This document shows positions 2,898-51,870 of a stretch of DNA of 64,000 nt, piece after piece. The notes beneath the pieces were generated by a model, which was not told the origin of the DNA, searched no databases, and saw only the letters and a program-made list of their open reading frames with translations. The DNA comes from Cordylochernes scorpioides (taxonomy: Eukaryota > Arthropoda > Arachnida > Pseudoscorpiones > Chernetidae). How positions within the stretch are numbered: position 1 is the stretch's first letter; each line of letters opens with the position of its first letter. The stretch spans positions 73,535,044 through 73,599,043 of the forward strand of contig CP092874.1 in assembly GCA_030710605.1 (NCBI GenBank). Direction: 5' to 3'. The position numbers and the translations under genes were made by a program.

Positions 2898-2943
2898 GTT
2901 TACAAGCTTTCGGGGTTTTAAAACGACCCTTCTACAAGTAAAA
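2898..2943 (-). ncRNA. Hammerhead-like motif, family E
   Basis: On the minus strand: helix I strand TTTAC, core TTGTAGA, a long hairpin (AGGGT...ACCCC), GAAA, GCTT, then GTAAA. Helix I strands TTTAC/GTAAA pair perfectly. The core deviates from CTGANGA at the first and fourth positions (the latter shared with other family E copies), so activity is doubtful. Confidence 0.45.
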
Positions 2944-2973
2944 GGTTTTTAGAAGAGGTATCTACAATTAACA

Positions 2974-3150
2974 TAATATAAATTATCAGTTTCCCAAAAG
3001 ATATTTGTTGCTATATAATTCAAAATATATCTGCAAAAGGTATTAAATTTAATATACGTTTCTTTACTGGAAATGAAAAAATACTTGGATCTGTTACTAT
3101 TAAATTATTGTCGATTCTATAGTTCTGAAAAACAGGACAATGTGAATACA
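2974..3150 (-). mobile_element. Non-LTR retrotransposon fragment
   Basis: Very similar (by eye over about 170 bases) to 56897-57073, the end of a LINE ORF2 on the minus strand encoding the region around the final Cys/His motif. Truncated at both ends and lying in a Duox intron in the antisense direction. Confidence 0.65.
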
Positions 3151-4374
3151 TGATGAGTGTTTCAAATAGATTTTAATATTTTGATTTACAATGGTCACTA
3201 TGCATGCCTGCGTCCAGGAAAACATTTGATTTTTAGAAAAGTGTCAGTCACCCTCTTACTTTGATTATCCAGCAGCAGAAAAGCGTCTTTGCTTGTAAGC
3301 TCGCTTTTTCACAATATAAAAGACACGTATTGTTAAATTTTTGATTTATTTTTGTATAAATATTAACAATTTACTTGATATTGTTACACCTTTAGATGTA
3401 GATGGTTTTGCTGTCGTTTTCATTGTACTGTAGAATAAACCAGAACGAGTTCTCATTAAAAAGCTGACGCTTTATTTTGGTAAGCTTACAAAGAAAGAGA
3501 AGAGCCGACGCGAGCGCGCGTGGCTGCACTAAATTAACAACAAAAAAAGAATAAACAAAACAATATTAATTTGTTTAATAAGTGAAAAATTAATGAAAAT
3601 ATTTACATGAGTCTATGTCGGCTGTGATAATATAATGGTCAGGAATTCCCATCAAGGTCTTCTTGCCACAGGACCTCTCTGAAGAGGCTTTATTTTATGT
3701 TAATGACAACATAATCTGGTGTTTTTTTTTTTCAACACGACACTGTGTTGCCTATTAGATGAAAACAAATGGTACTAAACTCATAGTTTAAATATATTTT
3801 TTGCATTTTTTACAATTTTTGATATTGTTTTCTAGAAAGAGAGAGTTATATTATTTGTAGGATGTCTCAATATCATTGGATGTTCGATGCATTAAAAAGG
3901 TGTGGCCTGAGAAATGATGTTATAAACAAAATTGACGAACATGTTAAAAGTATACCGCTCTTAGAAGTAACTGCTATTAGCAGGTTCTACTGTTCATACA
4001 TAAATTCTCTTATTTATCTCTCAATCTCTTTTAAAAAATATATAATTTGCTCTTGTTACGATATTATCGAAGATTTGACCAGTGCGTGTATGGATGTCAA
4101 TGAAGTTATTGCGCAGTGTTTGTATCTCGACTTCATAAGAATGTGAAATTTGGCCGTGTAATAAACGAATTAATAAAAACGTTAGGTAGGTGTGTTGAGA
4201 TTTTTATAAGTCGAGAAGTTTTTGCACAACCAGTGATATAAAAAAACTGTTCAAGGAGACCTAAGGTCAAGATATGTATCAGCTTAGATATGTAACAAGT
4301 GAAATAAAGAAAGCCTTAATTAGCTTGATGCCGAGATAAAGGGTATTTGTACATTCTGTGTATTGGATGTGTAG
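3151..4374. other. Duox intron interior, no recognised feature
   Basis: AT-rich. A short GC-rich block at about 3497-3525 and an open frame at 3862-4143 were inspected; neither resembles a known family. Confidence 0.5.
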
Positions 4375-4641
4375 GTAAACCTGAGAACAAGTTGCGCATC
4401 ATTTTCGACATGTGTGACGCCGAGGGCCGCGGTACCATCGAGAAACAAGAACTGACCCGTATTCTGCGGTCGCTAGTGGACATCGCCAAGACTGCCTCAC
4501 TGTCCGAGGATCAAGTTCAGGCACTCATTGGTGACATGTTCTCCGCCGCCGGCCTACAGGATAAGGAACGTCTCTCGTACGAGGACTTCACTCTGCTCAT
4601 GCAGGAGTACAAGGGAGACCTCATCGGCTTGGACTGCAAAG
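4375..4641 (+). CDS. Duox: Duox exon: second EF-hand
   Basis: 267-base exon, phase 1 at both ends; acceptor GATGTGTAG, donor GTACAT. The first two bases complete the Gly codon split from the previous exon. It reads GKPENKLRIIFDMCDAEG at the start, with a second EF loop DAEGRGTIEKQE, then RILRSLVDIAKTASL and the characteristic end FTLLMQEYKGDLIGLDCKG. In animal Duox this precedes the cytosolic linker before the six-helix oxidase domain. All Duox landmarks of this segment are present and no frame disruption is visible. Confidence 0.95.
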
Positions 4642-4968
4642 GTACATTCAACCCTACCTTGATTAATATCCCCCATTTTAAACTGTACATCAATAAAAAT
4701 ACTCCTTCTTTAATGTTCGAGAGCTAGACATATGAACAATGCCAATCTCCTCATTCTATTAAGCCATTTCTTTATAATAAATATCATTATTTACGCACAC
4801 TGGTACAAAGGCGGCGATAAATTTACAAAATTTTGAAATAACAACTAATAAATTAAGAAAAAATAAAGGAGCGACCCCGCCTCATTTGTATATTTTACAA
4901 AACAAAATTGAACTATAATGACGTTATGTGTGCTGAGAGTTTGTTTATACAAAATAAATACATTTTTA

Positions 4969-5011
4969 TGCTTTGACAAAGGTTGACGTTCAGCCAACCG
5001 AAATATTGTCA
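4969..5011 (+). ncRNA. Hammerhead-like motif, family G (decayed copy)
   Basis: Layout TGCT, TTGACAA, hairpin AGGTTGAC-GTTCA-GCCAACC, GAAA, TATT, GTCA. Same family as 11935, 26309 and 33149-33438, but helix I pairs poorly here. Confidence 0.35.
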
Positions 5012-5184
5012 AATAAATATATTTCTTTTTTCAATTCAATGATTCAAATAATGGATTGCTCCATTTAAAAGATATATATTATTCTTTAACCAGCGTGTCC
5101 TTGCATACACATGTTAGGATATTTTACAAAAATATATTATTTTCTTGTTTACATATTTATTATAACAACATTATATATTTTTGA

Positions 5185-5545
5185 TTGCTATGCTCTGAAA
5201 GAAGAAAGAAGAACCCTTATGCTCAAAACTGGGCAACTCTGTGCTTCACTTCCACCAATAATTGACAATATGACCCAGAATAAGTATATTGCTACGGCGT
5301 TTTATGGTTTCCACAAGTCCGTATCTCAGAAGAAGGCCAAGTGACACTCACTCCTCACTTTCTTACTGCTACTCTTTTTGTGTTGTTTTTCTTGCTTCCC
5401 TCTTTCTCTTTCTTGTTTTTTTTTTCTTTTTCTTCTGTATATATCGTTATTTCCTTTGTCTCACTTCTTTGTTCTTATGCATACCTCTGGTGAATCCTGT
5501 ATAGGGTCATTGACCCTGAATAAAGGCTTTTTGTTGTTGTTGTTG
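5185..5545 (+). mobile_element. Non-LTR retrotransposon 3' end, family B
   Basis: A decayed ORF2 tail ends AFYGFHKSVSQKKAK followed by TGA at 5341. The 3' UTR ends with a hairpin (AGGGTCA-TTGACCCT), then AATAAAGGCTTTTTG and a (GTT)n tail. The same tail-hairpin-AATAAAGGC arrangement occurs at 24545-24602 and 47130-47197. 5' truncated, so not mobile by itself. Confidence 0.65.
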
Positions 5546-5859
5546 TTGTATAACAACATTATATGCAATTATATTTTGAAAACTTCAAATGTTCAGATTC
5601 TTCAGATTCCCTGCTCTTTATAAGGTCCTGTGCAGGTCTCCCTTGGTTCTCTCTTCTTCGAGTTCTTCTCTTTATTCTTTCTTAGTTTCCCACCCAGTTC
5701 TTCAGCGATATATCTTCTTCTATTCTCCTCCCATGGCGCAAGCCATCAGCAAATTTTAGTTGCACGATCAGTAAATGCCCTTTTTCTCATATATATTTGT
5801 GTGTATCAAAAATGATGCCTCTCCCTTTATTAAGGAAGAATGTAAACCAATTTTCAGCG

Positions 5860-6290
5860 ATATATGACACTATATTGATAATGACCATATAAGGCTTTAT
5901 ATAAAACGACGTTTGAGACAAGTTTTGCAGCAAGTGTTTCTTTTGAACGAAAAATCGTAATTTATTATAAGGAGAAATAACGCCTATTTCTATCCTTAGG
6001 GATGAAGTATGAAATGATGAATTGTGAAGAGTAATGATAAACGGAAAAATAAAAGTGTCCAGGGATGGGAATCGAACCCACAGTGTTCCGTTTATCGGGC
6101 AGATGCCATGTCCACTAGGCTACCCTGAACATATTTCATCCTTTCATACTTCATCCCTAAGGATAGAAATAGTTGTTATTTCTCCTTAAAATAAATTACG
6201 AATTTTCGCTCAAAAGAAACATTTGCAGTAAAACTTGTCAAACGTCGTTTGCAATCATAAGCCGCATTATATTTATTGTATTATAAAAGA
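5860..6290 (-). repeat. tRNA-headed repeat copy 2 with inverted arms
   Basis: The tRNA-like head (6058-6128, minus) shares the head sequence of the 2054 copy, with loop CCGATAA. Arms containing CCTAAGGATAGAAATA and CTCAAAAGAAACATTTGC-type sequence lie on both sides in opposite orientation, so the unit folds back around the tRNA-like core. In a Duox intron, antisense. Confidence 0.65.
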
Positions 6291-6375
6291 TTATGTTGGT
6301 ATATATATGTTGGTAATCGATATAACACTGTGAAATATCATAACATCACTAAACGCCTATGTTCGTTTTTTCCAG

Positions 6376-6418
6376 GAGTGAAACAGAATTTCCTAGACAC
6401 CTCTTCCAATATTACAAG
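6376..6418 (+). CDS. Duox: Duox short exon after the EF-hands
   Basis: 43-base exon between TTTTTTCCAG and a perfect GTAAGT donor, phase 1 in and phase 0 remainder two out. It encodes G-VKQNFLDTSSNIT plus a split Arg/Ser codon. The CKG-(A/V)KQNFLDTS junction is characteristic of arthropod Duox. No further Duox exon is recognised between here and the gap at 11018, so the membrane, FAD and NADPH-binding half is absent from this contig portion. Confidence 0.88.
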
Positions 6419-6707
6419 GTAAGTGTCATGTAGTTTTTAATAAAATTATTTTTACATTTCGACAAACACATTTAAAATATTTTAAAATCCGAAAATATTT
6501 GAAGAATCGATATTTACACATTAAAATATTCCCTCTCTCTTATTATTCATTAATATTCTCTCTATATATAAATGTATTATTCACATGGCTTATATATAAA
6601 ACTGAATGTGAATACGAAATTTAAATACTTCTATGGGAGATCTGCCTCTCGTTCTTTAGTATAGCTGTAATCCATGAACCAACACTCTTCCATATATATA
6701 TATATAT

Positions 6708-6745
6708 ACTAGCCGAATGACCCGGGCAACGCCCGTGTTTTACCC
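6708..6745 (-). mobile_element. Helitron 3' terminus
   Basis: Minus strand ends with hairpin ACGGGCGTTGCCCGGGT, then CATTCGGCTAG and T. A subterminal hairpin followed by CTAG inserted before T is the Helitron 3' signature. The element is cut after about 38 bases, where a tRNA-Tyr fragment begins. Confidence 0.65.
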
Positions 6746-6804
6746 GACTGTAGATGTTACAACGGTGATCCTTAGGTCGCTGGTTCAAATCCGGCTCGAG
6801 GAAG
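6746..6804 (+). pseudogene. tRNA-Tyr(GTA) 3' portion with intron
   Basis: GACTGTAGAT (anticodon GTA), then a 12-base intron-like insert GTTACAACGGTG, then ATCCTTAGGTCGC and T-arm GCTGGTTCAAATCCGGC. Animal tRNA-Tyr genes carry an intron at just this place. The 5' half is replaced by the Helitron end. A T-rich run follows, as expected of a Pol III terminator. Confidence 0.75.
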
Positions 6805-7023
6805 TTTTTATTTTTTTTTTATTGGCTGCCGGCGAGCACGTGACCTCCCTGTGCGCGCGCATCCGTGACAGAGGCCGATGAGGAAAGACGGTCGTGACTA
6901 TATATAGGGATATTGTCATAACCAAAAATGTACATAGCGTGTAACTGTAAATAATACATCGGCAGCTCGGCCGTCTGGTGGCGCGCGCTAGACGGGAAGT
7001 TTGTAAACCAATTATTTTATTTC

Positions 7024-8129: not shown

Positions 8130-8465
8130 CCTGGAGAGATAGATTTTGTTCTTCTTCTTTCTTATCTCCTGGGTGAAGTAGAAAGCATCTGCTTTCGTTA
8201 TTAAGACTGGGAGCACTACTCAGTGGCAGGCCGACTTAGCTCCAAAATAAATGGCCGCCTCTGACATGAGGAACAGACGCCATATGCAGCTGCTCCTAAC
8301 ATGGAGTACAAACGCTGCTCATCCTGTATCCCTGGATTAGGAGCCCTTACAGGTTCTATCAGCTGGGCCAGCTGAGCCCAGGTTTTTTAGTGAGCTTGTT
8401 ACTGCTCCCCCTCCTCCTTTTAAATCCGGGCTTGGGACCGGCAAAGGCGGAGTTCCATAGCTCTA
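8130..8465 (+). repeat. Interspersed repeat shared with 57830-58185
   Basis: Contains CAGTGGCAGGCCGACTTAGC, TGTATCCCTGGATTAGGAGC and TTTTTTAGTGAGCTTGTTAC, all present in inverse orientation at 57830-58185. Diverged pieces also occur near 11600-11800, 30660 and 55430. The class is not recognised; both copies have stops in the open frames I checked. Confidence 0.6.
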
Positions 8466-11117: not shown

Positions 11118-11123
11118 ACTTAC

Positions 11124-11934: not shown

Positions 11935-11977
11935 TGCCAATATTTTGGTTGGCTGAACGCCAACCTTTATCAAGGCA
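11935..11977 (-). ncRNA. Hammerhead-like motif, family G
   Basis: Minus strand: TGCC, TTGATAA, hairpin AGGTTGGC-GTTCA-GCCAACC, AAAA, TATT, GGCA. Helix I TGCC/GGCA pairs fully. Core TTGATAA differs from CTGANGA at two conserved positions, and the GAAA box is AAAA. Confidence 0.45.
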
Positions 11978-15016: not shown

Positions 15017-15861
15017 GGTGGGGAAGCCTTCCTTGTTGAAGTAATTTGTACACATACACAACTACATACATATTCCCCTACATTTTATATACCCTTTATT
15101 TACTATTTTATTATATATTTTTTTCCACCTTTGTAAAAATTTATTAGAAGAATCAATAAAATTGCTTAAATTGTCATGCGTCTACTGCCATACAACGAAG
15201 TAAGTAAAAGAAGCCCAAGAGTTCAATACTGACAATCAGATACAACCAAATACAATCATATCTCGATCCCCCTCCAGTTGTCCATGACAGAAAAAGATTA
15301 GAGTAACAACGTTCCTAACCAGGTTTCCAGATATATGCAGAATTATACTTTCCCTATCTTACACATATTATACAAATAAATCATGATGTGTTTTTATAAG
15401 GTGTCTCGTACCCAAATAAAAGACATCTATTCATATAAAAATGTTGATATACTCTCGGATCATAGAAAAAACGGATACCATCAAACATTTTAGAAGTCTG
15501 CTCCAATTGGAACTAAAATCAACAATTATTCACAACAGACTGACCAAAGAATGGCCTTTCCTCAAGCCCCCATATTTCAAAAGTGCTCTATATAAAAAAG
15601 AAGGCATTATTTATCTTAAATATCTATAAATCCCACGACGCCTCCTGAGATTAGGGGTATAATTGAAAAGAAATCCTTAATGCCGGCACAATAAGAAAAT
15701 GATAATTGAAGGCTGGGGAGATGAAAAATGACGTTGCTGATAAGTCAGCCCTTGGAGATCTTATCCCATAACAATGGGGATAATCTCCATGGGAGGGAAG
15801 GATCTAACATGGGCGGCTCGCTAGCCATAGGGAGCCTCTCCTCAGTTATAATAGAGTACTT

Positions 15862-16893
15862 ATTTTTCTGTGAAAGATAGACACTTCGGCCAGTTCCTGA
15901 AGATAGAAGTTGCCTGGCCGGCATTCATATTTCTGTGAAAGATAGACACTTCGGCCAGTTCCTGAAGATAGAAGTTGCCTGGCCGGCATTCATATTTCTG
16001 TGAAAGATAGACACTTCGGCCAGTTCCTGAAGATAGAGGTTGCCTGGCCGGCATTCATATTTCTGTGAAAGATAGACACTTCGGCCAGTTCCTGAAGATA
16101 GAGGTTGCCTGGCCGGCATTCATATTTCTGTGAAAGATAGACACTTCGGTCAGTTCCTGAAGATAGAGGTTGCCTGGCCGGCATTCATATTTCTGTGAAA
16201 GATAGATACTTCGGCCAGTTCCTGAAGATAGAGGTGGCCTGGCCGGCATTCATATTTCTGTGAAAGATAGATACTTCGGCCAGTTCCTGAAGATAGAGGT
16301 GGCCTGGCCGGCATTCATATTTCTGTGAAAGATAGATACTTCGGCCAGTTCCTGAAGATAGAGGTTGCCTGGCCGGCATTCATATTTCTGTGAAAGATAG
16401 ATACTTCGGCCAGTTCCTGAAGATAGAGGTTGCTTGGCCGGAATTCATATTTCTGTGAAAGATAGACACTTCGGCCAGTTCCTGAAGATAGAGGTTGCCT
16501 GGCCGGAATTCATATTTCTGTGAAGGATAGATACTTCGGCCAGTTCCTGAAGATAGAGGTTGCCTGGCCGGAATTCATATTTCTGTGAAAGATAGACTCT
16601 TCGGCCAGTTCCTGAAGATAGAGGTTGCCTGGCCGGAATTCATATTTCTGTGAAAGATAGACACTTCGGCCAGTTCCTGAAGATAGAGGTGGCCTGGCCG
16701 GCATTCATATTTCTGTGAAAGATAGACTCTTCGGCCAGTTCCTGAAGATAGAGGTTGCCTGGCCGGAATTCATATTTCTGTGAAAGATAGACACTTCGGC
16801 CAGTTCCTGAAGATAGAGGTGGCCTGGCCGGCATTCATATTTCTGTGAAAGATAGACACTTCGGCCAGTTCCTGAAGATAGAGGTGGCCTGGC
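15862..16893. repeat. 65-bp minisatellite, about 16 copies
   Basis: Near-identical 65-base units, each containing TTCTGTGAAAGATAGACAC, CGGCCAGTTCCTGAAGATAG and CTGGCCGG. CGGCCAG and CTGGCCG in each unit form a perfect 7-bp hairpin. Because 65 is not a multiple of three, all minus-strand frames stay open through the array and give the same cycling peptide. These frames are a product of the repeat, not genes. Variants cluster by position (GCATTC versus GAATTC junctions), as expected from local duplication. Confidence 0.95.
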
Positions 16894-17244
16894 TAGCAAA
16901 ATTGGAGAGGAGTGGACTTCAGGAATTGGTTTAACCATGGAGATAAGCATCACCACAACAATTATACCTAATAATTATACAAAATTGTTGTTTTATATTT
17001 TTTTTATATAGTAGCTAGTTGTGTTTTATATTTTCCCAAGCTACCAAGTGTCATGCCATCTTTCTTAACTTTGGATGAAAGCTATTCCTATGAAAACTCT
17101 GTTTTTTTTGTTCTTTTATAATAAAATAATTGGGATTCTCTGAATTCTGTCTATTATATATTTTATTCGATAAAATAATCCCTTGAATCAATATTAAAAT
17201 AAGAACATTAAACCTCCAGGGAAAGTTTATTTTTTATTTACAAA

Positions 17245-17287
17245 TCTCTCAAGCTTTCGGGCAAGAAAGCCCTTCTACGGGAGAAAA
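17245..17287 (-). ncRNA. Hammerhead-like motif, family E
   Basis: Minus strand: TTTCTC, CCGTAGA, hairpin AGGGC-TTTCT-TGCCC, GAAA, GCTT, GAGAGA. Helix I TTTCTC/GAGAGA pairs over six positions with one wobble. Confidence 0.5.
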
Positions 17288-17359: not shown

Positions 17360-18370
17360 GAATGCAGAATCAACGCGGGCCTCTATTGCGCTTGCTTATC
17401 GAGTTTGTTATTCAGAGGCGATATCTTCATTTTGGGGTTATGGGGTGGGTTCAGGAAAAGTATATTATAAATTTCCGGAATGTCTATTCTTCTGTTAATG
17501 ATATTGTGCTTTCTGGATATGATGGATTCTATGATAAGTCTTTGTAGTCTATTGGGGATGGTGGAGTAATGGGTCTTTGGTTCTGATAAGGAGAAGGAAT
17601 GGCCTGTTTATCTTATATGTTGGTATACTAAAGATCTACTGTCTTGATTATCGATATTTCATTTATGTTCTGATACTCTTATATTTAAATGTCTGCCAGT
17701 TTCGCCTACCTACTTGGTTTTACATTCGTTGCATTCTATGGAGTATATGGCATTCTTAATATTGGAAGGATAATCAATGCTACTGTTCTTTGTTATGGGG
17801 TTTCTTAATAACGAATTTAAATTAAGTGAGTTGCTGAAAAAGGTTTTAATTACAAATTTCTTCAGATAACGGGCTATAGAAACAGATACTGGTGAATAGG
17901 GAATACTGCTAATAGATTTATAGATTGGGGAATTCCGAATTTCAGAGAGGCTTTGGAAAGTATTAAAATAAATTATAAAGGATATTGACAGGTCTTTAGA
18001 TTTCTTAAGATATTCTGAGTTTCTTCTGTTTTAAAGGTATGAAGTGAGCAGTGGCTATGGATACGTTTAGTTAAGGTCTTTACGGTATTGATTTTATGGC
18101 TGAGAGGGCAGTAGGAGGAAAAACGGATAAAGTCGGGTTGAAGGATGGCTTATAGTAACCAGATGTTTGGAATTGTTGTTGTATGTGAATGATTTTTATT
18201 TTTAGAAAAGGCAGGCTATTGTTTGTTTCTTTTTCAAAAGTGTAATTTAGGTTAGGATGGTAACTATTGAGTCTTTCTAGAATGTTCCTTGTTTGATTTT
18301 CGGGACAGATACAAAATATGTCATCAATATAACGACGCCATAAAACTATATCTCCCTCCTTCAACCTCAG
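17360..18370 (-). mobile_element. Penelope-like element, decayed
   Basis: Minus-strand frame at 18364-18080 encodes reverse-transcriptase motifs: LWRRYIDDIFCICPENQT (the YxDD box), then LNSYHPNLNYTFEKETNN and LPFLKIKI, typical of Penelope-like elements. Further 3' (about 17770-17640) another frame gives YSIECNECKTK-stop-VGETGRHLNIRVSEHK, matching the GIY-YIG endonuclease that follows the RT in this group, where a (Y)(I/V)GETGR motif is expected. Stop codons and frame changes interrupt both parts. The N-terminal half is missing. Penelope-like elements are known to carry hammerhead ribozymes in their terminal repeats, which is relevant to the motif at 17245. Confidence 0.8.
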
Positions 18371-18429
18371 TCGCCGAAATTGTCATGCGTCGCATAGACA
18401 GTTGGATAATTTCCCTATTGCATATATGT

Positions 18430-26308: not shown

Positions 26309-26352
26309 TGCCTTGATAAAGGTTGGCGTTCAGCCCAACCGAAATATTGGCA
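26309..26352 (+). ncRNA. Hammerhead-like motif, family G
   Basis: TGCC, TTGATAA, hairpin AGGTTGGC-GTTCA-GCCCAACC, GAAA, TATT, GGCA. Helix I pairs fully and the GAAA box is intact; the core has T for C at its first position and A for the conserved G. Confidence 0.5.
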
Positions 26353-27614: not shown

Positions 27615-27739
27615 AAAATTAATCATTTCTCCAGGGAAAAGTGTCTTTTCATTTTTTTTTTTAGTTTTCGGGCACATTCGCCCTCCTACAGGAAAAAAAA
27701 CCTGAAAATACACTTTTTCCTGGAGGAATGATTAATTTT
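27615..27739. repeat. Foldback with hammerhead-like motif, family E
   Basis: Outer arms AAAATTAATCATT/AATGATTAATTTT and CTCCAGG/CCTGGAG. Inside on the minus strand (27655-27700): T-run, CTGTAGG, hairpin AGGGC-GAATG-TGCCC, GAAA, ACTA, A-run. Helix I is a T-run pairing with an A-run. Confidence 0.5.
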
Positions 27740-28718: not shown

Positions 28719-28831
28719 TGAAAAAGGCATTTCCTTATCGTGAAACTGAAAGTTTCTGATGGCTTGCGTCATCTATCGGAATAAAGCCATCAGCAACTTT
28801 CAGTTGCACGATAAGGAGATGCCTTTTTCAT
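28719..28831. repeat. Foldback of the GATGGC/GCAACT repeat
   Basis: Inverted arms carrying ATCTCCTTATCGTG and AACTGAAAGTT; the unit is the 3' part of the repeat at 48016-48215 (hairpins GATGGC-GCAA-GCCATC and GCAACT-TTC-AGTTGC). Confidence 0.6.
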
Positions 28832-29831: not shown

Positions 29832-29990
29832 ATAAATAGTGTGTGGCGTTTAGGAAACAGTGTTATTACCATCTTCAGACAAAAGTGCTGAAGCATTCTG
29901 TGCTGCACATTCAACACTTTGTCTGAAGATGGTAAGCTGTTACCTAAACGTCACATACTATTTATTTGAATTTGGTCTTATTACCTTGTA
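29832..29990. repeat. Inverted dimer of family P hammerhead-like repeat
   Basis: The plus arm at 29918-29960 has TTTGT, CTGAAGA, hairpin TGGTAA-GCTG-TTACC, TAAA, CGTC, ACA. The minus arm (29836-29893) has the same parts inverted, with core CTGAAGA. The two arms share a short spacer. Confidence 0.6.
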
Positions 29991-30464
29991 TCTACAATTG
30001 TGTTTTTTTTTTTAAATACCCTCACACCATGGTTTTTCTCAATATTACCAGCTATATAAACTGTATAAGCCACATATACAATAATACAGCGGTCTGGTAG
30101 GTTCATCAAGAATGAACAAAAGTTTCCATAATATTTTAAATTGCAGAAACTGGCAGCATAAATTATTTTAGATGAGTAAACAAAATCGCGCGAAAACAAT
30201 TTCCAATCTCTCTATATAAGCTCAACTTGATCAACTTTCTCTCTCCACAATACTAATTATTACAGGTAACTTCATTAAATCAACTTCCATCATTGCTTAA
30301 CATACTGTTAATAACTACCTTGCGATTCATTCTATCTGCTTATGTTGTTGCTTATTTGTTTAATGTTTAATGTGGTATATGTTTATTCAATGCTCTTTTT
30401 CTTAATTGTTTATTTTCCTTTTGATAATTCTGTTACCTACTCTACTACAATATGAATTATTGTA

Positions 30465-32416: not shown

Positions 32417-32607
32417 ACACAAGGTAATAAGACCAAATCCAAAAAAATAAATAGTGTGTGGTGTTTAGGTAACAGTGTTATTACCATCTTCAGACAAAAG
32501 TGCTGAAGCATTCTGTGCTGCACATTCAACACTTTTGTCTGAAGATGGTAAGCTGTTACCTAAACGTCACATACTATTTATTTGAATTTGGTCTTTTTAC
32601 CTTGTAT
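32417..32607. repeat. Inverted dimer of family P hammerhead-like repeat
   Basis: Near-identical to 29832-29990 but with full outer arms (AAGGTAATAAGACCAAAT and its inverse). Plus core CTGAAGA at 32539-32545; minus core CTGAAGA at 32493-32487. Both GAAA boxes read TAAA. Confidence 0.65.
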
Positions 32608-33148
32608 TTACAATAGAAAGAAATATATCCTAGATTATTCATTCATCTGCTAAATCCAGAGGTGGTACAGAATAGTGAAGACCTGAGCAAATAGTCAACG
32701 TTCTTCAAAAGTCATTTATATTCAGATCCAGGTCTCAGTTGTCATAGATTCCAGGATCTGTCCAAGATGGATCACCAACCATTTAGGAAATATAATCCCT
32801 CCCTATGTAATTAAATAAGTTACTGCATTCAGAATAGGTAAATAGAAGCTTTGAAGTCTTCTAATTCATGTATTCTGTGGACTACAATGGCGGATAATCC
32901 CACCACTTAACCCTCTTTTTCTACACTTCAAGATTCCTTTCTATTGGCTATTGATCGTAGACACTCAGACGAAAAGATTTCATTTGAAAGAATTATTAAA
33001 GTTCTATCGATAGTTAAAAGTTTGACCAATATCGGGATTTTTGTTCATAATCCCCTATATTCTTTTATACTTAGTCTAATAATTTTTAAATTATTGAATA
33101 TACAGGTTTTTCTAATCTCTATCATGGATATATATATATATATCAATT

Positions 33149-33438
33149 AAAAAGACATATATTGGATCAAAATATAATTTATTTTACCAATATTTCAGTT
33201 GGCTGAACGCGAACCTTTTTCAAGGTATTATAACATATTAATGTGTGTTAACAACAAACTCTCTATAGTAATTAATAATAAATATAATAACTCAATAATA
33301 ATTCTATTGACGTTATCTGGCGCTGAGTTTGTTGTTGACACACATTAATATGTTATAATACCTAGATAAAGGTTGGCTTTCAGCCAATTGAAATATTGGT
33401 AAAATAAATTATATTTTGACCCAATATAGGCGTTTTAA
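33149..33438. repeat. Inverted dimer of family G hammerhead-like repeat
   Basis: Plus arm 33359-33401: TACC, TAGATAA, hairpin AGGTTGGC-TTTCA-GCCAATT, GAAA, TATT, GGTA. Minus arm 33227-33185: TACC, TTGAAAA, hairpin, GAAA, TATT, GGTA. Helix I is TACC/GGTA, in place of TGCC/GGCA at 11935 and 26309: a compensatory change. Confidence 0.6.
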
Positions 33439-34492: not shown

Positions 34493-35982
34493 CATTGGTG
34501 TCCAAAAAATAAGAAACCTTTGTTTTTTAATGATATGTTTTAAAATATACAACGCTAAAAGCTAAAAAGTAATTTAATTAGGTATTTTAAGTCGTAGAAT
34601 TTATTTATCGCAACCATTCGATTCGGTAAAATTGAAAATATGCAAATTTTTGCTTGTCTTTATAAGTGTGTTATTTGGCGTGTCGTTTACCCCATCTAAG
34701 AATTGTCCAATTATAATTTTATTTAATCCTTAGTTAATTATGAGTTTACGAAAAATTTAGCAGATGATTTAAAATGGAGAGCTGTTGGAAGAATGGAGGC
34801 AGGGCAATCACAAGTTGAAGTAGCAAAATGGCTAAATGTGAATAAATCTGTGGTCAGCAAAATATGGAAACAGTTCATTGAGACAGGAACCATCGAAAGA
34901 AAAGAAGGTTCTGGTAGAAAAGAAAAACAGCTACCTCTGAAAACCGTTATCTGGTCGTAACTGCCAAGCGCCATAGGGAGATGACAGCTATTCAACTCTC
35001 TAATGAACTCTCAAGTGCTACTGGAACGAGATTTTCAAGACAAACTGTTTACCGAAGGCTTCACGAATGTGCTCTTTATGCAAGACGACCAATGGTCTGT
35101 ATCCCTTTAACCTCTGCTCATAGGAGAGCCCGCTTGAATTGGTGCTTGGAACAACACGCCTGGACTCATGATCAGTGGGCCAATGTTCTCTTCAGTGACG
35201 AGTCAAGATTTAGTTTAAACACAGATTCTCGACGAGTTTTCATCTGGAGGGAGCCTGGAACCCGCTATCATCCCAGTAATATCAGGGAAATAGACAGTTT
35301 TAGAGGGGGCAGTCTCTTAGTCTGGGCTGGCATCAGTTCTAGCAGACGCACACCCCTCCACATTTTTCTGGGGGCACTTTAACTGCCCAAAGGTACAGGG
35401 ACGAGATCCTTGAGCCCTATCTAAGACCTTATAGAGATCAAATTGGTCACAATTTAATTTTTATGGACGATAATGCTCGTCCGCATAGGGCTAGGCTAGT
35501 CAATGAATATCTCCAGAGTGAGAATATTCGAAGGATGGATTGGCCAGCCAGATCCCCGGACCTGAATCCAATAGAGCATGTGTGGGATGCTCTAGGGAGG
35601 CGTATTGGAGCTCGTCACCCCTCTCCCAGAACCCTCGTTGAGCTAAGAACTGCTCTATTGGAGAAGTGGGGTTTACTACCCCTGGACCTCCCCCAAAGCC
35701 TGGTAAACAGTATGAGGGCTCGCTGTGAGACCTTGATAGCTGTTAGAGGTGATCATACTCCCTATTTATATCTAATTTCTTTAAGATCTGGAACCTTAGC
35801 TTTGGGTATGTTGGTAATAATTTGCATATTTCATAAATACAAATATATTTTTTAATTTTCATATAGCTAGTCAAATTCTCCATAGTTTAAACTATTTGTA
35901 TACAAAATTTTATATTTGTTAATAAATTAGATTTTGAGAAATTTCAATATTGGTTAAGTTTCTTATTTTTTGGACACCAGTG
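34493..35982 (+). mobile_element. Tc1-like transposon (dead copy)
   Basis: Terminal inverted repeats CATTGGTGTCCAAAAAATAA and TTATTTTTTGGACACCAGTG, flanked by TA on both sides, bound a 1490-base element containing one transposase gene. TA duplication is typical of Tc1/mariner. Confidence 0.92.
34740..35862 (+). pseudogene. Tc1-like transposase with two frameshifts
   Basis: Helix-turn-helix region: LKWRAVGRMEAGQSQVEVAK, then NVNKSVVSKIWKQF. After a frameshift at about 34922-34930 (run of A) the frame resumes REMTAIQLSNELSSATG and FSRQTVYRRLHE, with the first catalytic Asp in FSDESRF. A second frameshift in a G-run (about 35370-35374) leads to MDDNARPHRARLVNEYL (second Asp) and PDLNPIEHVWD (Glu). 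The spacing of 34 residues gives DD34E, the Tc1 signature. The triad is intact, so only the two small indels disable it, implying a fairly recent loss of function. Confidence 0.9.
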
Positions 35983-39335: not shown

Positions 39336-40985
39336 TACTCTATAAAGCTCACTATATAAGCTTAGATTTTTTTGGAAGAAAGGTATTAATTTTTGTCACA
39401 ATTCAAGTTGTTCATCGTTAGCAATTCTGTACGCGATCCTGACCACGACAATAGATTTTGTCGAAATATCGATAAAAATAAATATCTTATTAACTCTCTG
39501 AGATGTTTTTTTTTTACGATGTATTTCCTAAACCGGGTGACAATACCAGCTATTTGCGCCAAAGTTAATTTTATTTCTAAAAATATAATTTTCCTTAAAT
39601 ATCATTTAATTAAGGATTCAAAATATAAAAAAAAAACTGTTCCTCATGCAAAAATCAAATTCAAAGCAAATTGATTCCATTTGTTTTCCATTGTCCATCT
39701 TTTCATTAAAAAAAAAAAGGATGGAGAAAATTCTAATATATACACATTAATATAGTAATTGATATATTTAAAATCATTCTTACCATTTTAATTAATCTCA
39801 TGCTATTTCCTATTTAAATCGCTGAGAGAATTCTTACGTTGAAATTGTATTTAGAATCAACTACTAATGGGCAAATTGCGACTGCTGTGATAGAGATGCA
39901 TGTAGACCTCTGAGGCTCTTCATTGGACACGACAACAACAACATCACCTACTAATATATTGTAACAAAATATATTATTTTATTAGCAGAGTATTATTTTT
40001 TATGTTTATATTTTGCTATACTCTGTACACTTCCCTCTTTTGTTTATCTTTTGTTTTATGACTCATAGTTTGTTCTTGCCTGAAATAAATTGTTATCTCA
40101 TCCCGAAGTTGGTCTTCCCTAATTTTCCATGTGTGGCAATATTATAGAATACAGAACTTCCATTATCTCTGTTTATATTTTCATTTTATTTCTATTTTAT
40201 TCATTGCTTTTGGATACTGGATGGAGAATCTGTATAAGACTAAGTTATTGATAAAAATGCTCTCTATGTGTTTCAATTTGAAGATTGCTATTGTTGAGTA
40301 TATGATCTATCCTTATATCAGTGCGGTATTTTTGGTAGAGGATGATATGGGGCCTTCTTTCCTCAGTATACAAGAATGGCTATGGTTTTGAGAAAATCGT
40401 CTTGGAAGAGCCTGGTTGAGGAGGGGCCTAGTCTTAGAGAACGATTTATCTAAAAATATGACAGAGTATATGAGTAGATGAGAAACAGGTTTTGTTTAGC
40501 ATTTTTCTATATCTTTATAATTAATTATATCAGAATAGCAGTATATTATCAAGGTTTAATATTTGGAACAGAGTCCTGATAGGTCTTATTCATTTATATA
40601 CCGTGTACTGTATGTGTGAATCTATATGGAAAATGATTTCCTAAGTTGTCTCTATAATGGGTTTTGTGATGCGTGGATTTTCCTAAGATAGATAAACTAC
40701 AAAGAGGAAGAAAGCCCTGGAAACATCAGGAATTGTCTCGTTTTTTTTTTAAATCCAGATTCAGGTATACCACTTTTTTATTTTCCCAGATTTAACTATA
40801 TTATTTGTTTAACACAATCTTAGTTAATATCTCCGCATTTTAGTGATTTTGAAGATTGTTGAAGGCCCCCAAGGAAATTACAATAAATTATAATTGATTA
40901 TTTGATTAATTGAATAATTATTAAATGGACCGTTTAAAATAAATTTCAATTGTATATTGGAATTATTTTTTAAAGTTACAAAATA
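39336..40985. other. AT-rich, nothing recognised
   Basis: Only a LINE-like 3' tail at about 39910-39955 (CTCTTCATTGGACACGACAA, then CAACAACAAC), which recurs at 60745-60780. Confidence 0.5.
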
Positions 40986-40987
40986 TT

Positions 40988-42962: not shown

Positions 42963-43266
42963 AATAAGTGTCATCAAAAATTTACAATTTACACGTCATA
43001 AGAAAGTTGTTGATAATCCATCAGCAACTTTCAGTTGCATGATAAGGAGATGCCTTTTATTTCTTAATTTATGCACCTAATCCCAGTGCAATATCCATTT
43101 GTAATATTTTTTCACGTCATAAGAAATCAATTTGAACCAAATTCCATGTTTTCTTTCTTTAATTCTTTGGTGCAACACATTCTATTTTTACTAGTATATA
43201 TAAATTGAATATAAGCCAAACAATCTTCAAACAAGAGAAAATATACTAATATATTATTTTAAAATT

Positions 43267-43478
43267 CTTATTTTGGATCATATATATTTTTATTTTCCAA
43301 TATTTCGTATGGAAACTCGCCAAAACTTCTTCGGGGAACAAGATTGTTTTGAGATGATCGCGTATCAATTCACGAGTATGTACAACTTAACAAAATTGAT
43401 ACGCGAGTATCTCAAAACAATCTTGTTCCCCGAAGAAGTTTGGCGAGTTTGGAGGAAAAAATGATCCAAAATAAGCAT
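43267..43478. repeat. Palindrome 1: inverted dimer, hammerhead-like
   Basis: Arms of about 85-110 bases. Minus strand of the left arm: GTTCC, CCGAAGA, imperfect hairpin, GAAA, TATT, GGAAAA, with helix I TTCC/GGAA. The right arm has lost the GAAA box. Confidence 0.6.
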
Positions 43479-43531
43479 TTTTAAATAATTTAATATATTG
43501 ATTGCTCAATTTTCAAACATACCAATATATT

Positions 43532-43853: not shown

Positions 43854-43888
43854 CGATAGATGGCAATAAAATTTAATATACCAATATA

Positions 43889-44099
43889 TTATAAAATAAA
43901 TGAAGCTTCCAGGGTTATGTTTCTTGTGCAACTTTTTATTTTCAAGCTTTCGTACTTTTCAGTCCTTCAACAGGATTATCACGTTAACAACTTAATAATA
44001 TTAACGTGATAATCCTGTTGAAGGACTGAAAAGTCCGAAAGCTTGAAAATAAAAAGTTGCACAAGAAACTTAACCCTGGAAGCTTCATTTATTTTATAA
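43889..44099. repeat. Palindrome 3: inverted dimer, hammerhead-like family E
   Basis: Arms of about 100 bases, loop of about 10. Plus arm: CTGTTGA (44015), hairpin AGGACT-GAA-AAGTCC, GAAA, GCTT. The left arm is the inverse with one change in the hairpin. Confidence 0.7.
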
Positions 44100-45420: not shown

Positions 45421-45421
45421 T

Positions 45422-47470: not shown

Positions 47471-47652
47471 CATCAAAATATCATAATTAATTAATACAGT
47501 TCTTGTATACAGTATATATACAGTAGAAATTGTATAATTATAACGTCTTAATTCGAAAACGTATTTAATTCGAATTTTATCTTGGTCCCTAGACTTTTAA
47601 GCCTTTTATTCAAATTTTTTAATTGAAATTTTTGGATAAATGATATACCAGG

Positions 47653-47696
47653 TTTTCTCCTGTAGAAGGGCGTCCGTGCCCAAAAGCTAGAGAATA
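47653..47696 (+). ncRNA. Hammerhead-like motif, family E
   Basis: TTCTC, CTGTAGA, hairpin AGGGC-GTCCG-TGCCC, AAAA, GCTA, GAGAA. Helix I TTCTC/GAGAA is perfect; the GAAA box is AAAA. Confidence 0.5.
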
Positions 47697-48015
47697 AAAA
47701 TGTTTTGAAAAGAAACTTTCCCCTGGAGGAATGTTTTACTCAATATTGATGTAAGGGAATATTTTATAGAATTGTATCAAATCTTCTATTTTTCTGTAGA
47801 AAATTATTTTCAGTGTTTTTAGTTCTAGTACTTATAGATATAATATGTTTTAGAAAAACAAGTTTCTCAAACAGAAGATATATTTTTGCTATTACCTTAC
47901 AAAATACATTCGCGATTTACAATATGAATTACCAAAGAATTATCAGAAACTCCAATTATTTTGAAAAAATAGTACAAATGTGATTTTGTATACTTGATAT
48001 ATACATGATGCTTGC

Positions 48016-48215
48016 ACCACGCTGATAAGTGCCAACAGCCCAAAACGCGTCCGTGGTTAGCTTTTCTTGATTAATCAAGAATGGGTATTTGGCCAATTCT
48101 GGAATAATTAAAAATCAACGAGAATAGTTGATATTTATTCCGATAGATGGCGCAAGCCATCAGCAACTTTCAGTTGCACTATAAGGAGATGCCATTTTCC
48201 AATTATTTTGTTGGC
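48016..48215 (+). repeat. Hammerhead-bearing repeat, family A, copy 1
   Basis: 48016-48057: ACCACG, CTGATAA, GTGCC-AACA-GCCC, AAAA, CGCGTC, CGTGGT. Followed by an inverted repeat CTTGATTAATCAAG and two hairpins (GATGGC-GCAA-GCCATC, GCAACT-TTC-AGTTGC). Copy 2 at 51665-51870 has the better core. Confidence 0.6.
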
Positions 48216-48454
48216 ACAAAGCACCACTTTAATTTTGAGCGTTCCCCGTCTATTAATAAAGTAACAGGCGTTAAAAAAGTGGGTGAAATAGTTTGTTCAC
48301 GGTATTACTTCAGATCCGGGTCAATCTTGGGTACTTTTTTTCCTTATTGGAATCCCCTTAGCTCTCTTGTCATAGACCTTGTCACAAATCAGCAGATGTA
48401 TGCGATCTTCGCTGAATTTTGACAGAATCAACTATGTCGATGTAATTGCCTTAG

Positions 48455-48650
48455 AAAATGAGGGGTCGTTGGAAGGATGGTCTAAACCGTTGGTTTTCGA
48501 CTGCTAATACCTGGGTTCAATTTCCGTATTGGGCATTTTTTTCTGATTGAAAAAATAAAATGCTCTAATGGCCCCCGATTCTTGTAAAATTCCAATCCCA
48601 CCAGCGAGTGCAAGTAACCAAACGAGACTCTGACATATTTGTAAGTGTAA
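48455..48650 (+). repeat. tRNA-derived SINE, second family, copy 1
   Basis: GGAAGGATGGTCTAAACC, TTGGTTTTCGA, GGGTTCAATTTCC, GGGCA and a T-run, then TGGCCCCCGATTCTTG and CACCAGCGAG. A tRNA-like head followed by an unrelated tail shared with 56680-56860. Confidence 0.65.
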
Positions 48651-49589
48651 AATCGAACTGCTTTTCACATGTGTAGACATGTGGTGCCCTTACAGTAAAA
48701 TCAGTCGCCTACTTTTACCAACCATGACTATCATGGCCTGTACCACATGTACTAGGGATAAGCAAAAAAAAAACCTAAAGAAATTATAACAAACATTTTA
48801 ACGGTACTTCTTATGTATATATAAATATTTAAAACATATTTTAGCAGAAATTCTACTGTAATGAATAAAATTTGAAAAGTGGGGAAGAACATGATTCCTC
48901 TTTTCAGCGATAGAAAACGCTATAATGATAATGTGTTTTTCAAGAATTGAGAAGTTTGTTTAGTAAGACGTAAAATTACTATAGGTGACTTTATGCATAA
49001 TTTAATTGTGAAAAATAGTTGATGTCTTTTGACAAGGGCATAACCGTCTGTTATGTTTTTTTTTTTTTGGTTATTCTTGATAAGCATTGTATGCATGGTA
49101 CTGGATTACTTTCTACATAGCCCTAAGAAATATAGAATTGAAGTCAAGTTGAAATAAATAAGATGAAACTCTATGTTTGGTAACTTTCGAATTGAAGATG
49201 GCACATGGTAAAATATGGATTTTTGGAATGTGAGTGCGCAAGAAGTTAATATTTTATAGAGGCTAGGTATTAGATTTGTGGTTGGATTAAAGGCATATTC
49301 TGATAAGAAACAAGCATACTGCCGCCATCTTAGATCCTGTTTCTTAACAGGATTCCTGCCTCATCTATCTTCTGTTTATCAGAGGCACCGGTGTGTGAGA
49401 TCGTCTGCCGAGATATCCAGGTCCTATCCATCATAGGGGGTCACGAGTGCCCTTGTTTACTTGCCTTATTGGGGATATGCACAGAGGTGAAATCTTGGTG
49501 CTTTCAGTATTGCTCTATTTCTTCCATTCTTTATTTAGATTCTTATAATTAGAAGATTTTCTAATAGAATCAGACGTTTAAATATTATA

Positions 49590-50440
49590 GTCCGAGTATC
49601 GCGTCGAGATTCTGGGTTGGACATTTTGGAAACCTGTGTAGCACGTTGGAAATCTGGGTTGAATGTTGTGAAAACCTGTGTTGGACCTTATGGAAATCCG
49701 TATTGCATTTTGGAAGTCAACGTTGTAGAAACCCGTGATTGACTTTAAGTCTTTGTTAGATGTTGTGGAAACACGTGTTGCACTTTGGACGTCTGGTTTT
49801 GACATTGTTTAAACCCGTATTGCACTTTGGGCGTCTGGTTTGGACATGGTGGAGACCCGTGTTGTACTTTGGGCGTCTGGGTTGGATGTTGTTGAAACAC
49901 GTGTTGTACTTTGGGCGTCTGGGTTGGATGTTGTTGAAACACGTGTTGTACTTTGGGCGTCTGGGTTGGACATTGTTAAAAGCCGTGTTGCACTTTGGAC
50001 GTCTGGTTCTGATATTGTGAAAACCCGTGTTGTACTTTGGGCGTCTGGTTTTGACATTGTGAAGACCCGTGCTGCACTTTGAGCGTCTGGGTTGGATGTT
50101 GTGGAAATACGTGTTGCACTTTGGGCATCTGGTTTTGATATTGTGAAAGCCCGTGTTGTACTTTGGACGTCTGATTTTGATATTGTGAAAACCCGTGTTG
50201 TACTTTGGGCGTCTGGTTTTGACATTGTGAAAACCCGTGTTGTACTTTGGGCATCTGGTTTTGACATTGTGAAAACCCGGGTTGCACTTTGGGTGTCTGG
50301 TTTGGATATTGTTAAAACCGGTGTTGCACTTTGGACGTCTGGGTCGGAGGTTGTAACCCGTGTTGCACTTTGGACGTCTGGGTCGGAGGTTGTAACCCGT
50401 GCTGAAATTTGGAAGTTTGTATTTGAGGTTTAAAGCCAGT
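49590..50440. repeat. 42-bp minisatellite, about 20 units
   Basis: Units with GTACTTTGGGCGTCTGG, TTGACATTGTGAAAACCCG and variants. Because 42 is divisible by three, several frames on both strands remain open (minus: a 14-residue repeat such as RRPKYNTGFHNIKT, up to 272 residues). No start context, exon signals or domain supports a gene. Confidence 0.9.
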
Positions 50441-51660
50441 GTTACAAGTTGGAAGTTTGGGTGAAGTTTGAAACCTAGGTTGCACAATGTGGAAGTTAAT
50501 GGGTTGTAGGTAGAGATTGTGTTACATGTTGGAAATACGATTTTCAAGTAGAAAATTTGTGATGCACTTTTCAAATCTTCTTTTGCATGATTGAATGTCT
50601 ATTATATAGCATATGTTACACATCTGTGCTATACCCACTGTCGTAGATTGCATTAACTGTAGACATCCATTCATCGCCCTGAAATTGAAATTACTAAACA
50701 CCGACAATGCCGCCGACTTTCTCAGACCCCATGGCTGTTACCTACACCCAGAGCACTGGGCAAGGTGATCAAGTCAGCAACATCGCCGCAAACTACAAAT
50801 CAATAAGTTGAATGCTCTATCAGAAAGCCAACAACTGAGATTGTTGGCTGAAGAATGTGGAAGCATATGGGCAACCTCTACCCCTAGTTGAGTAACAAAA
50901 GCAGCTGCGACCTCAATTATGGACTCGAACCTTTACCAGTGGGTGGCCTTAATCCCGCGACCATTGTCCTACCGTAGGTGCAGAGATTCCATCACAGCTA
51001 CCATAGCTCCACGGCCTTGGGAACTGTCGAGGACAGTAGTCGCTAACCTTCGATTGGCGACCTTACACAAATTAACTCCAATCTAATCTGAAAGCCACCG
51101 TTTTATCCATGTGCGCATCCCTAGGTTTATAGCCACGGCGTCATAAATCCTCCAGAACTCTGTCACTTTTTAATGACCTCGATAATTAGGTTATCAGAGA
51201 AATAAATTATTTTAATCCACATTCCTTACAGGCAAGCAAGCGATGGGTGGTGGATCATTTGGGAAATAATAGCGCGAGAGAAGAATTTAAAATATTGGGA
51301 AGATAGAATGATGATATAAGAAATGAAAAGAAAGAGAAAACATGATTAACCAAGTTTTGTGGCTAATTGTTGTGAATTTGTCTAGTCCTTAAAAAATTGC
51401 ACACAATGAAGTATACATTTTATAATGAATTCTCTAGCCATTATTTTAATCCCCAGAGCAAAATATTCAGAACATATTATGGAAATGGATATATATATAA
51501 TGAAGAAAATTCTTAAAATGTTGTTTATCGTGTAGATTATATGTTAAGGGATGTCATTGGAGTAAGTAAATATTGGGAAAATATGGCACTCTCTACATGC
51601 TATCTATACTTAAGCACACCTAATCGAACTTTAACATTCGAATTCCTTTTTAACACACTT
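50441..51660. other. No gene recognised
   Basis: A GC-richer patch at 50700-51110 has stops in every frame I followed. A sequence near 50930 resembles a tRNA T-arm but no cloverleaf forms. Confidence 0.5.
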
Positions 51661-51664
51661 GATA

Positions 51665-51870
51665 ATTTATGAAAAAAGGCATTCCTTATCGTGCAACTGG
51701 AAGTTGCTGATGGCTTGCGCCATCTATCGGAATAAATATCAACTATTCTCGTTGATTTTTAATTATTCAAGAATTGGCCAAATACCCATTCTTGATTAAT
51801 CAAGAAAATCTAACCACGTACGCTTTCGGGCTGTTGGCCCTCATCAGCGTGGTGCAAGCTGTACCTCAAC
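51665..51870 (-). repeat. Hammerhead-bearing repeat, family A, copy 2 (canonical)
   Basis: Minus strand 51853-51813: ACCACG, CTGATGA, hairpin GGGCC-AAC-AGCCC, GAAA, GCGTA, CGTGGT. Core CTGATGA and GAAA are canonical, helix I is six perfect pairs, helix III would be one A-T pair. Cleavage would be expected after the A of GTA. The tail matches 48016-48215. Confidence 0.65.

Follow-up and report, generated by a model that had tools for sequence, protein, structure and literature searches.

The window analysed here, a stretch of 64,000 nucleotides from the pseudoscorpion Cordylochernes scorpioides, probably (at roughly three chances in four) reflects a genome crowded with retroelements that carry hammerheads, in which family A is a retrozyme, family E a motif of Penelope-like elements (PLEs) and family G a short element, all inserted by PLEs, and in which families P and D and a palindrome at 43267 have decayed. 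This reading is built on directly observed copy numbers, layout, covariation, a rule at position 17, the linkage of E to PLEs and the orientation of paired copies, from which we infer cleavage, the help of dimers or protein, and mobilisation in trans. Hammerheads in PLEs and retrozymes are already known, and minimal type I hammerheads of PLEs were reportedly described by Cervera and De la Pena in 2014 and by Lunse et al. in 2017. By pattern matches, hammerhead-like motifs in retroelements number in the tens of thousands in this animal genome; the features of the window are collected in Table 1.

Table 1. Hammerhead-like motifs and associated features in the window
Positions	Strand	Feature	Details	Basis
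2899..2942	-	Family E	core TTGTAGAA; helix I TTTAC/GTAAA	motif search
4969..5011	+	Family G	core TTGACAAA; mismatch in helix I	
5733..5779	+	Family A element	3' end fragment, no ribozyme	BLAST
11935..11977	-	Family G	core TTGATAAA; AAAA for GAAA	
17245..17286	-	Family E	core CCGTAGAA; ~430 nt downstream of PLE coding remnant	
17710..18382	-	PLE coding remnant	two ORF pieces	identity to L039 PLE ORF: 46/74 and 30/56 residues
23933..23968	+	Family E	core CTGTAGAA; helix I CTC/GGG; best-preserved E core in the window	
26309..26352	+	Family G	core TTGATAAA; helix I TGCC/GGCA; layout intact	
27655..27698	-	Family E	core CTGTAGGA; within ~120 bp foldback	
28726..28772	-	Family A element	3' end fragment, head-to-head with 28784..28823	BLAST
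28784..28823	+	Family A element	3' end fragment	BLAST
29832..29998	.	Family P	head-to-head pair; TAAA for GAAA; degenerate	
32417..32614	.	Family P	head-to-head pair; TAAA for GAAA; degenerate	
33185..33227	-	Family G	core TTGAAAAA; helix I TACC/GGTA	
33359..33401	+	Family G	core TAGATAAA; helix I TACC/GGTA	
39435..39474	+	Family H	core CTGACCAC; GAAA TA TC	relaxed score
41768..41812	-	Family D	core CTAAGGA; degenerate; within foldback	
43015..43054	+	Family A element	3' end fragment	BLAST
43936..43981	-	Family E	core CTGTTGAA; head-to-head pair, left half	
44007..44052	+	Family E	core CTGTTGAA; head-to-head pair, right half	
47652..47697	+	Family E	core CTGTAGAA; AAAA for GAAA; helix I TTCTC/GAGAA	
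48016..48057	+	Family A	core changes CTGATAA and AAAA (G8A, G12A)	motif comparison
51813..51853	-	Family A	intact canonical minimal type I hammerhead	ACCACG CTGATGA GGGC-CAACA-GCCC GAAA GCG TA CGTGGT

Detection and the canonical family A

A strict canonical descriptor (helix I of at least 4 bp, CTGANGA, helix II of at least 3 bp, GAAA, 2-5 nt, T, a non-G base and helix I') found 11 sites in 264 kb, one of them in the window (51813-51853, minus strand), against a mean of 0.025 and a maximum of 1 in 40 dinucleotide shuffles of the 264 kb; since the descriptor itself fixes the core and the non-G base at position 17, the shuffles are its control. A TTGANAA form with one extra base occurred at nine sites (two in the window) against 0.075 in shuffled sequence, and the CTGTNGA form of family E, with helix I of at least 4 bp and GAAA, occurred at none in 264 kb, which leaves the local copies of E outside the strict set. 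Relaxed scoring returned 28 sites at a score of at least 24 (three in the window; 0.17 in six shuffles) and 41 at a score of at least 22 (eight in the window; 2.2 shuffled). The window copies of E scored 20.2-22.3, a range with 2-11 background sites per 264 kb, and their weight therefore rests on the genome-wide family rather than on their own score. In all 11 genome pattern searches the reversed-pattern control was zero.

Rfam as scanned here was blind both to an intact canonical copy and to an E copy: the scan of the window at E ≤ 5 returned no hammerhead and missed the intact copy of family A, which reached 14.1 bits to HH9 at best when scanned alone, one E copy scanned alone was not recognised, and five loci gave no hammerhead above cut-off. 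Because the intact copy is missed, these negatives are uninformative; a genome search with RF00163 gave 0 matches, its control was without signal too, and the result was set aside. The preliminary description had looked to enrichment over shuffles, helix covariation and an Rfam covariance search for its confirmation, and the first two were borne out (the covariation values are given below for the canonical families and for E), the third yielding nothing that bears on the matter.

Judged from its sequence, family A is a non-autonomous animal retrozyme. It has 31,939 exact matches genome-wide by pattern search, a set that does not include the intact window copy owing to the 3-nt loop of the latter. 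Families A and B carry the canonical type I features (open-ended helix I, CUGANGA, helix II, GAAA, A15.1-U16.1, H17), and G occupies position 17 in only 106 of 32,045 family A matches (0.33%). Across 14 distinct copies of the canonical families, 97.9% of pair cells were formed and covariation was 0.562 against 0.202 ± 0.035 shuffled, a value that 0 of 500 shuffles reached. Among the 100 matches listed, direct neighbours within 1.5 kb were spaced 338-352 bp apart in 18 of 18 cases, and family A shows the type I hammerhead in units of ~170-400 bp, from dimers to multimers, by which animal retrozymes are recognised. The element consists of units of ~340-350 bp, single or in tandem, each with one minimal type I hammerhead that, we propose, would cut tandem transcripts into unit RNAs and give rise to circles. 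Like animal non-LTR retrozymes, family A forms single to multimeric type I hammerhead repeats in a genome that also harbours PLEs; mussel retrozyme repeats measure ~350-390 bp, and the helix III of one pair with a self-complementary tetraloop is as in the axolotl HHR_Amex1 (PMC7229834). Its ~32,000 exact matches compare with ~5000 copies quoted for the mussel retrozyme (PMC7229834), and, in contrast to the animal retrozymes, family A is known here from DNA alone.

Family G and the degenerate families

Family G, with 16,366 genome-wide matches by pattern search, has a core that in sequence is the known U3-A8 type: TTGATAA is a natural compensatory hammerhead core (Perreault et al. 2011, PMC3088659), and the U3-A8 pair is common to those natural variants and to G, which would be a short element with a compensated core. 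In the subfamily of copy 4969 an extended helix (TTGACAA/TTGTCAA) suits the sequence better than helix I, so that for helix I of G a single compensatory change remains as support (TGCC/GGCA to TACC/GGTA), and G is the weakest among the amplified families.

Seven places in the window matched family P, five with TAAA, one (26641) with GAAA and no core, and one (19772) with neither. The family D copy at 1797 has lost helix II, and of the 43267 palindrome nothing more than a GAAA-TA-TT-GG half survives, on the minus strand. An intact core with G12 was found in none of these three in the window and its 200 kb flanks, and they are probably decayed relatives.

Dispersed repeats with a hammerhead layout had been announced in the preliminary description, and they lie at or near the places it gave; family H is an addition. 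Its six families stand for A, intact at 51813, and for G as a layout in five window copies; E is a mixed case, with T at core position 6 in seven of seven window copies and a further lesion or a 2-bp helix I in six of them. The stronger claim that all six are ribozymes is not supported for P, D and the palindrome, whose window copies are missing essential core bases. The tie of the minimal type I layout, with almost no helix III, to PLEs and small retrozymes was upheld by the open reading frames (ORFs) beside E and the tandem spacing of A, and the consistent change of some cores by the genome-wide matches of E and G. As for the undescribed variants it suspected, TTGATAA had already been reported (PMC3088659), and CTGTAGA is unusual.

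Family E, its core and its Penelope-like elements

Counted with these patterns, family E roughly equals canonical family A in abundance genome-wide (28,842 against 31,939 exact matches), and by the coding sequence beside it belongs to PLEs. PLE ORFs were present in 10 of 30 E loci, with E then ~145-270 nt 3' of the coding sequence, and the other 20 held no PLE-like ORF of at least 130 aa; the calls were made with Pfam for tested loci and by eye for the remainder. RVT_1 was found at E ~1e-10 in the three loci tested with Pfam (L039, L021 and L036), GIY-YIG scored 23.4 bits in L037 (above the cut-off of 22.6) and 21.7 (below it) in L021, and a third candidate, L040, had no GIY-YIG match in Pfam; on the ORF pieces of the window's own coding remnant, Pfam alone found nothing. 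E-carrying elements have the RT followed by a GIY-YIG endonuclease and the repeated, often inverted flanks (pLTRs) of PLEs. In our reading this hammerhead-like motif lies close to the 3' end both of autonomous PLEs and of many short copies lacking ORFs. There it would serve to cut tandem transcripts of the PLE, possibly no more than as a dimer or when bound by the PLE protein.

The dominant core of E, with the 8-nt strand CUGUNGAA, departs from the type I hammerhead in that U replaces the supposedly essential A6 and in that an extra A separates A9 from helix II, which should follow it directly. Search patterns fixed C3, U4, G5, G8, A9, A13, A14 and U16.1; U at position 6 with A at N7 alone gave 18,562 matches, A, C or G at position 6 with any N7 gave 1,257, and the extra A was present in all but 193 of 29,035 U6 matches. 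G12 is kept (587 matches with it changed against 17,616 for CTGTAGAA...GAAAGCTH), and N7 is free (17,616 with A against 11,226 with C, G or T, CTGTBGAA...GAAAGCTH). G at position 17 (...GAAAGCTG) was found in 114 of 17,730 matches (0.64%), which are related, non-independent and without a neutral baseline for G17, and 32 of the 100 G17 matches listed sit in two arrays on contig 10. Among 32 distinct sequences it was found in none (A, C and U in 6, 9 and 17), and their cores were CTGTAGAA in 26, CTGTTGAA in four, and CCGTAGAA and CTGTGGAA in one each. By these frequencies E keeps to the cleavage-site rule, and its variant core would share that constraint with canonical hammerheads.

Helices I and II of E covary: in an alignment of 36 of the 42 distinct copies, 85.5% of helix cells were paired and covariation was 0.315 against 0.165 ± 0.019 shuffled (reached by 0 of 500) and at most 0.144 in slid versions; the six copies left out as near relatives include L022:681, in which helix I has lost its first pair. 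Past the first 3-4 bp, helix I is weak. Known minimal type I hammerheads of PLEs are like E in being tied to PLEs, in having helix III absent or nearly so, in the order helix I, core, helix II, GAAA, UH, and in a suspected action as dimers (PMC6155905, PMC7761336). Unlike them as described in those papers, nearly all E copies have U6 and the extra A after A9, and our literature search returned no paper joining a hammerhead with A6U; we make no claim of absence from print, the core lists of PLE hammerheads lying outside this comparison.

The U6 class may be a new hammerhead variant. At somewhat less than even odds, we propose a natural, actively spreading class in which U6 and the A inserted before helix II act together and which cuts RNA in dimeric form or together with the PLE protein; for the PLE protein PAc, hammerhead cleavage has been reported only with protein present (PMC11167929). 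Among natural core variants, a changed A6 and an insertion after A6 appear as rare single examples of low activity (PMC3088659), whereas in this genome the U6 core and its linked insertion ahead of helix II have been amplified to 28,842 exact matches. Changes at A6 are, however, reported to lower activity, A6C to below 0.1 per min (PMC3088659), so that the class could be dead. E and G might accordingly be former hammerheads that no longer cut and are kept as a folded hairpin for recognition by the PLE protein in reverse transcription, an explanation we take seriously without giving it an even chance. PAc inserts RNA in vitro with no need of hammerhead cleavage (PMC11167929), E folded alone is a rod with internal loops, and the position-17 rule would persist in such a hairpin because the internal loop would be closed by a pair between G17 and C3. 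Yet N7 is free, G12 is rarely changed, and G17 stands at a decay level comparable with canonical A, with A, C and U all occurring as family states, which is less readily expected of a dead hairpin than of a motif under the cleavage-site constraint.

Orientation of neighbouring copies and mobilisation

Head-to-head inverted neighbours are a known signature of PLEs. This orientation was found among neighbours within 6 kb in 22 of 28 cases for E, 16 of 19 for G and 23 of 24 for the set with A, C or G at position 6, and in 12 of 14 inverted pairs of family A within 1.5 kb (among the 100 matches listed); that retrozyme A shares it supports its movement by PLEs. Pair arms ended at the identical 3' place in 11 of 17 pairs and within one base in 13, and the paired motifs, with a shared outward 3' end, lay from tens of bases to more than 5 kb apart. 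No convincing target-site duplication was seen in the 17 pairs; in PLEs it measures 8-10 bp in some and is missing in others (PMC3846280).

We propose that a PLE protein (RT and GIY-YIG) most likely inserted families A, E and G, acting in trans, and that it would cut both target strands and start reverse transcription from each, which would produce head-to-head pairs with fixed outward 3' ends; PAc is reported to cut and extend both strands (PMC11167929). Self-priming (snap-back) on one template, as rotifer PLEs have been read (PMC3846280), or descent from DNA-transposon TIRs could also yield such pairs, and the near-symmetrical arms suit either, but the common outward 3' end at such variable motif distances does not, nor does the initiation of PAc on both strands, and we regard this origin as possible though on balance improbable. 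The TIR reading of E in particular was put aside once the three long pairs that were inspected proved to carry PLE ORFs between their arms. That foldback (inverted repeat) elements generate the layout of the variant families as a side effect, with a chance resemblance to hammerheads, is very improbable: several window copies do lie within long palindromes and the strict descriptor finds one site in the window and no U6 site in 264 kb, but the reversed-pattern control is empty and the position-17 and N7 rules are unexpected of foldbacks.

Homodimer folding gave, for eight of eight motifs, an energy below that of two monomers (gain 1.0-7.2 kcal/mol, smallest for E at -3.4 and -1.0 kcal/mol), and was dropped as proof of dimer action, several of the structures being swapped stems. 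Among helix III loops, CGCG, CCATGG, CG, TA and GC are self-complementary and fit dimer use; GT, AC, CAAG, CCTAG and CTTAG were found as well, and in 900 E matches the loop begins with a base that is not G.

The E class, with its thousands of natural copies, allows the invariance of A6 to be tested directly and supplies naturally paired changes, U6 with the extra A. Retrozyme A and PLEs share the head-to-head signature, which makes the mobilisation of animal retrozymes testable by sequence.

Canonical and U3-A8 hammerhead layouts

The genome searched comprises 2.62 Gb in 24 contigs, with the window on contig 12 (73,535,044-73,599,043), to which we added 200-kb flanks (264 kb in total), 30 loci, and 20 small stretches. 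The window itself also holds an EF-hand coding stretch, tRNAs, and U6; its genes and repeat types suggest an animal genome. Across the 264 kb, a strict hammerhead descriptor returned 11 matches (1 in the window), against an average of 0.025 over 40 dinucleotide-shuffled versions, and the U3-A8 form carrying an additional base returned 9 versus 0.075; five control cores with one base altered each gave none. The preliminary description had proposed that many unrelated repeats here share a hammerhead layout, and this held above shuffled background for the canonical and U3-A8 cores, but not for the U6 form (U at core position 6), which had no strict match in the 264 kb. Relaxed scores of at least 24 were reached by 28 matches (3 in the window) versus 0.17 over six shuffles, and scores of at least 20 by 65 versus 10.8. 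Local matches sorted into families A, B (helix I TCTGGA/TCCAGA and relatives), H (core CTGACGA-A, then GAAA-CG-TT), G (TTGATAA-A), and E (CTGTNGA-A), with every local copy of E scoring 20 to 22, so that single copies lie within the chance range.

By sequence layout, families A and B are minimal type I hammerheads of the canonical form. Among 14 distinct copies, standard pairs filled 97.9% of pair cells, both sides had changed in six pairs, and covariation was 0.562 versus 0.202±0.035 when shuffled, bearing out the proposed helices. The family A pattern has 31,939 exact matches genome-wide; among the first 100 places listed, direct neighbors within 1.5 kb were spaced 338 to 352 bp apart in 18/18 cases, and 12 of 14 inverted neighbors were head-to-head (3' ends outward). 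Local copies vary in their 5' ends, which lie between ~170 nt before the core and a point within helix I; their 3' ends group by subfamily. Family A repeats match the anatomy described for animal retrozymes (PMC7229834). Family G has 16,366 exact matches to a pattern of ~39 nt, a single compensatory change in helix I, and head-to-head orientation in 16/19 neighbors within 6 kb, a bias as in E; its U3-A8 core has been reported before as a natural, active compensatory change (PMC3088659).

Three further candidates lack essential core bases in the window. Family P has T for G12 (the G of GAAA) in 5/7 places, and neither of the remaining two combines GAAA with an intact core. Family D has lost either the core or its second helix (helix II), and the 43267 palindrome retains one half; all may be relics. 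The 65-bp array contains CTGANGA at 16 places, 65 bp apart, and showed no hammerhead layout by strict descriptor or relaxed score. For the type P1 twister candidate, the word GTCCCAAGCC was counted 8 times across the 264 kb; its 3' flank is conserved, and its 5' flanks belong to several unrelated types, as if a repeat had a twister at its 5' terminus.

Other features of the window and family E loci elsewhere in the genome
Feature	Position	Strand	Detail
Type P1 twister ribozyme candidate	8405-8459	-	39 bits, E 5.4e-5, under curated cut-off 67.2
Second, weak twister-P1 match	57827-57878	+	25.8 bits, E 0.33
Tandem array	15732-17006		65 bp period
Tandem array	49623-50462		42 bp period
Tc3-like transposase fragment	34918-35382	+	HTH_Tnp_Tc3_2, E 9.6e-17
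E loci with PLE-like ORF	L021, L023, L028, L034, L036, L037, L039, L040, L049, L050		

Core rules and helix covariation in family E

Genome-wide, the family E pattern CTGTAGAAGGG-N5-14-CCCGAAAG has 18,562 exact matches and its reversed control none. Extended by CT and a non-G base it has 17,616, and with G at position 17, the predicted cleavage site, 114; this rate of 0.64% is read against canonical family A (0.33%, 106/32,045) and against altered G12 in E (587, 3.2%, three other bases pooled), the two comparisons drawn. Over 32 distinct helix II/loop sequences, drawn from 62 local E rows (42 distinct), position 17 was U in 17, C in 9, A in 6, and G in 0. Position 7 is free, with C, G, or T in a further 11,226 matches. 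Position 6 is U; A, C, and G there sum to 1,257, of which the first 100 listed comprise a few recurring A6 families and scattered C and G, and U6 without the extra A before helix II totals 193. Two E-motif tandem arrays (~51 bp period, opposite strands) lie on contig 10 near 71.26 and 71.35 Mb; they hold 32 of the 100 listed G17 places, with G17 in many copies, and may be a dead satellite that arose from E.

The proposed helices also covaried in family E. We aligned 36 of the 42 distinct copies, the six omitted being near relatives of retained ones (in one, L022:681, the first helix I pair is broken). The two helices were 85.5% paired, and covariation was 0.315 versus 0.165±0.019 (0/500 shuffles as high; at most 0.144 in slid alignments), figures inflated by kinship among copies, though the second (UA 23, AU 5, GC 4) and third (CG 13, UA 11) helix I pairs nonetheless take several types each. 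Two further measures were unexceptional: both-side pair changes (40/500 shuffles) and further pair types (94/500).

Penelope-like elements and head-to-head pairs

The suggested tie to Penelope-like elements (PLEs) and retrozymes was upheld, with E in PLEs and A retrozyme-like. PLE-like ORFs of at least 130 aa occur in 10/30 E loci, assigned by eye except where loci were run in Pfam, and these loci are Penelope-like elements; in the remaining 20, the copies appear short or truncated. Pfam found RVT_1 in 3/3 loci searched (L039, L021, and L036; E ~1e-10) and GIY-YIG above cut-off in L037, just below it in L021, and not in L040. Motifs on the same strand as the ORF begin ~145 to 270 nt downstream of the last ORF. 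Within the window, two PLE-type ORF pieces sharing 46/74 and 30/56 identical residues with the L039 PLE ORF precede the E copy at 17245-17286 by ~430 nt. On contig 1 (9202235-9210436), four E motifs with a single loop type, all pointing the same way and spaced ~2.7 kb, look like a PLE tandem.

Among the first 100 E places listed, 22 of 28 neighbors within 6 kb were head-to-head. In 17 such pairs from several families, the arms share an exact 3' end in 11 and differ by at most one base in 13; E arms reach 82 to 97 nt from the core start. Head-to-head pairs of pLTRs, the repeats flanking PLEs, are known from rotifers (PMC3846280). A purified PLE protein is described as cutting and extending both target strands, with the PLE hammerhead cleaved only when the protein was present (PMC11167929). 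Such action on both strands would account for the head-to-head pairs, and protein-dependent cleavage would permit a weak hammerhead in PLEs.

PLEs and retrozymes are already known to carry hammerheads, so most of this picture is familiar, here in another genome. Within the literature consulted, the class with U6 and the extra A is an apparently new hammerhead variant that, judged from its sequence conservation, follows the same rule at the predicted cleavage site as working hammerheads do and breaks a base thought essential.
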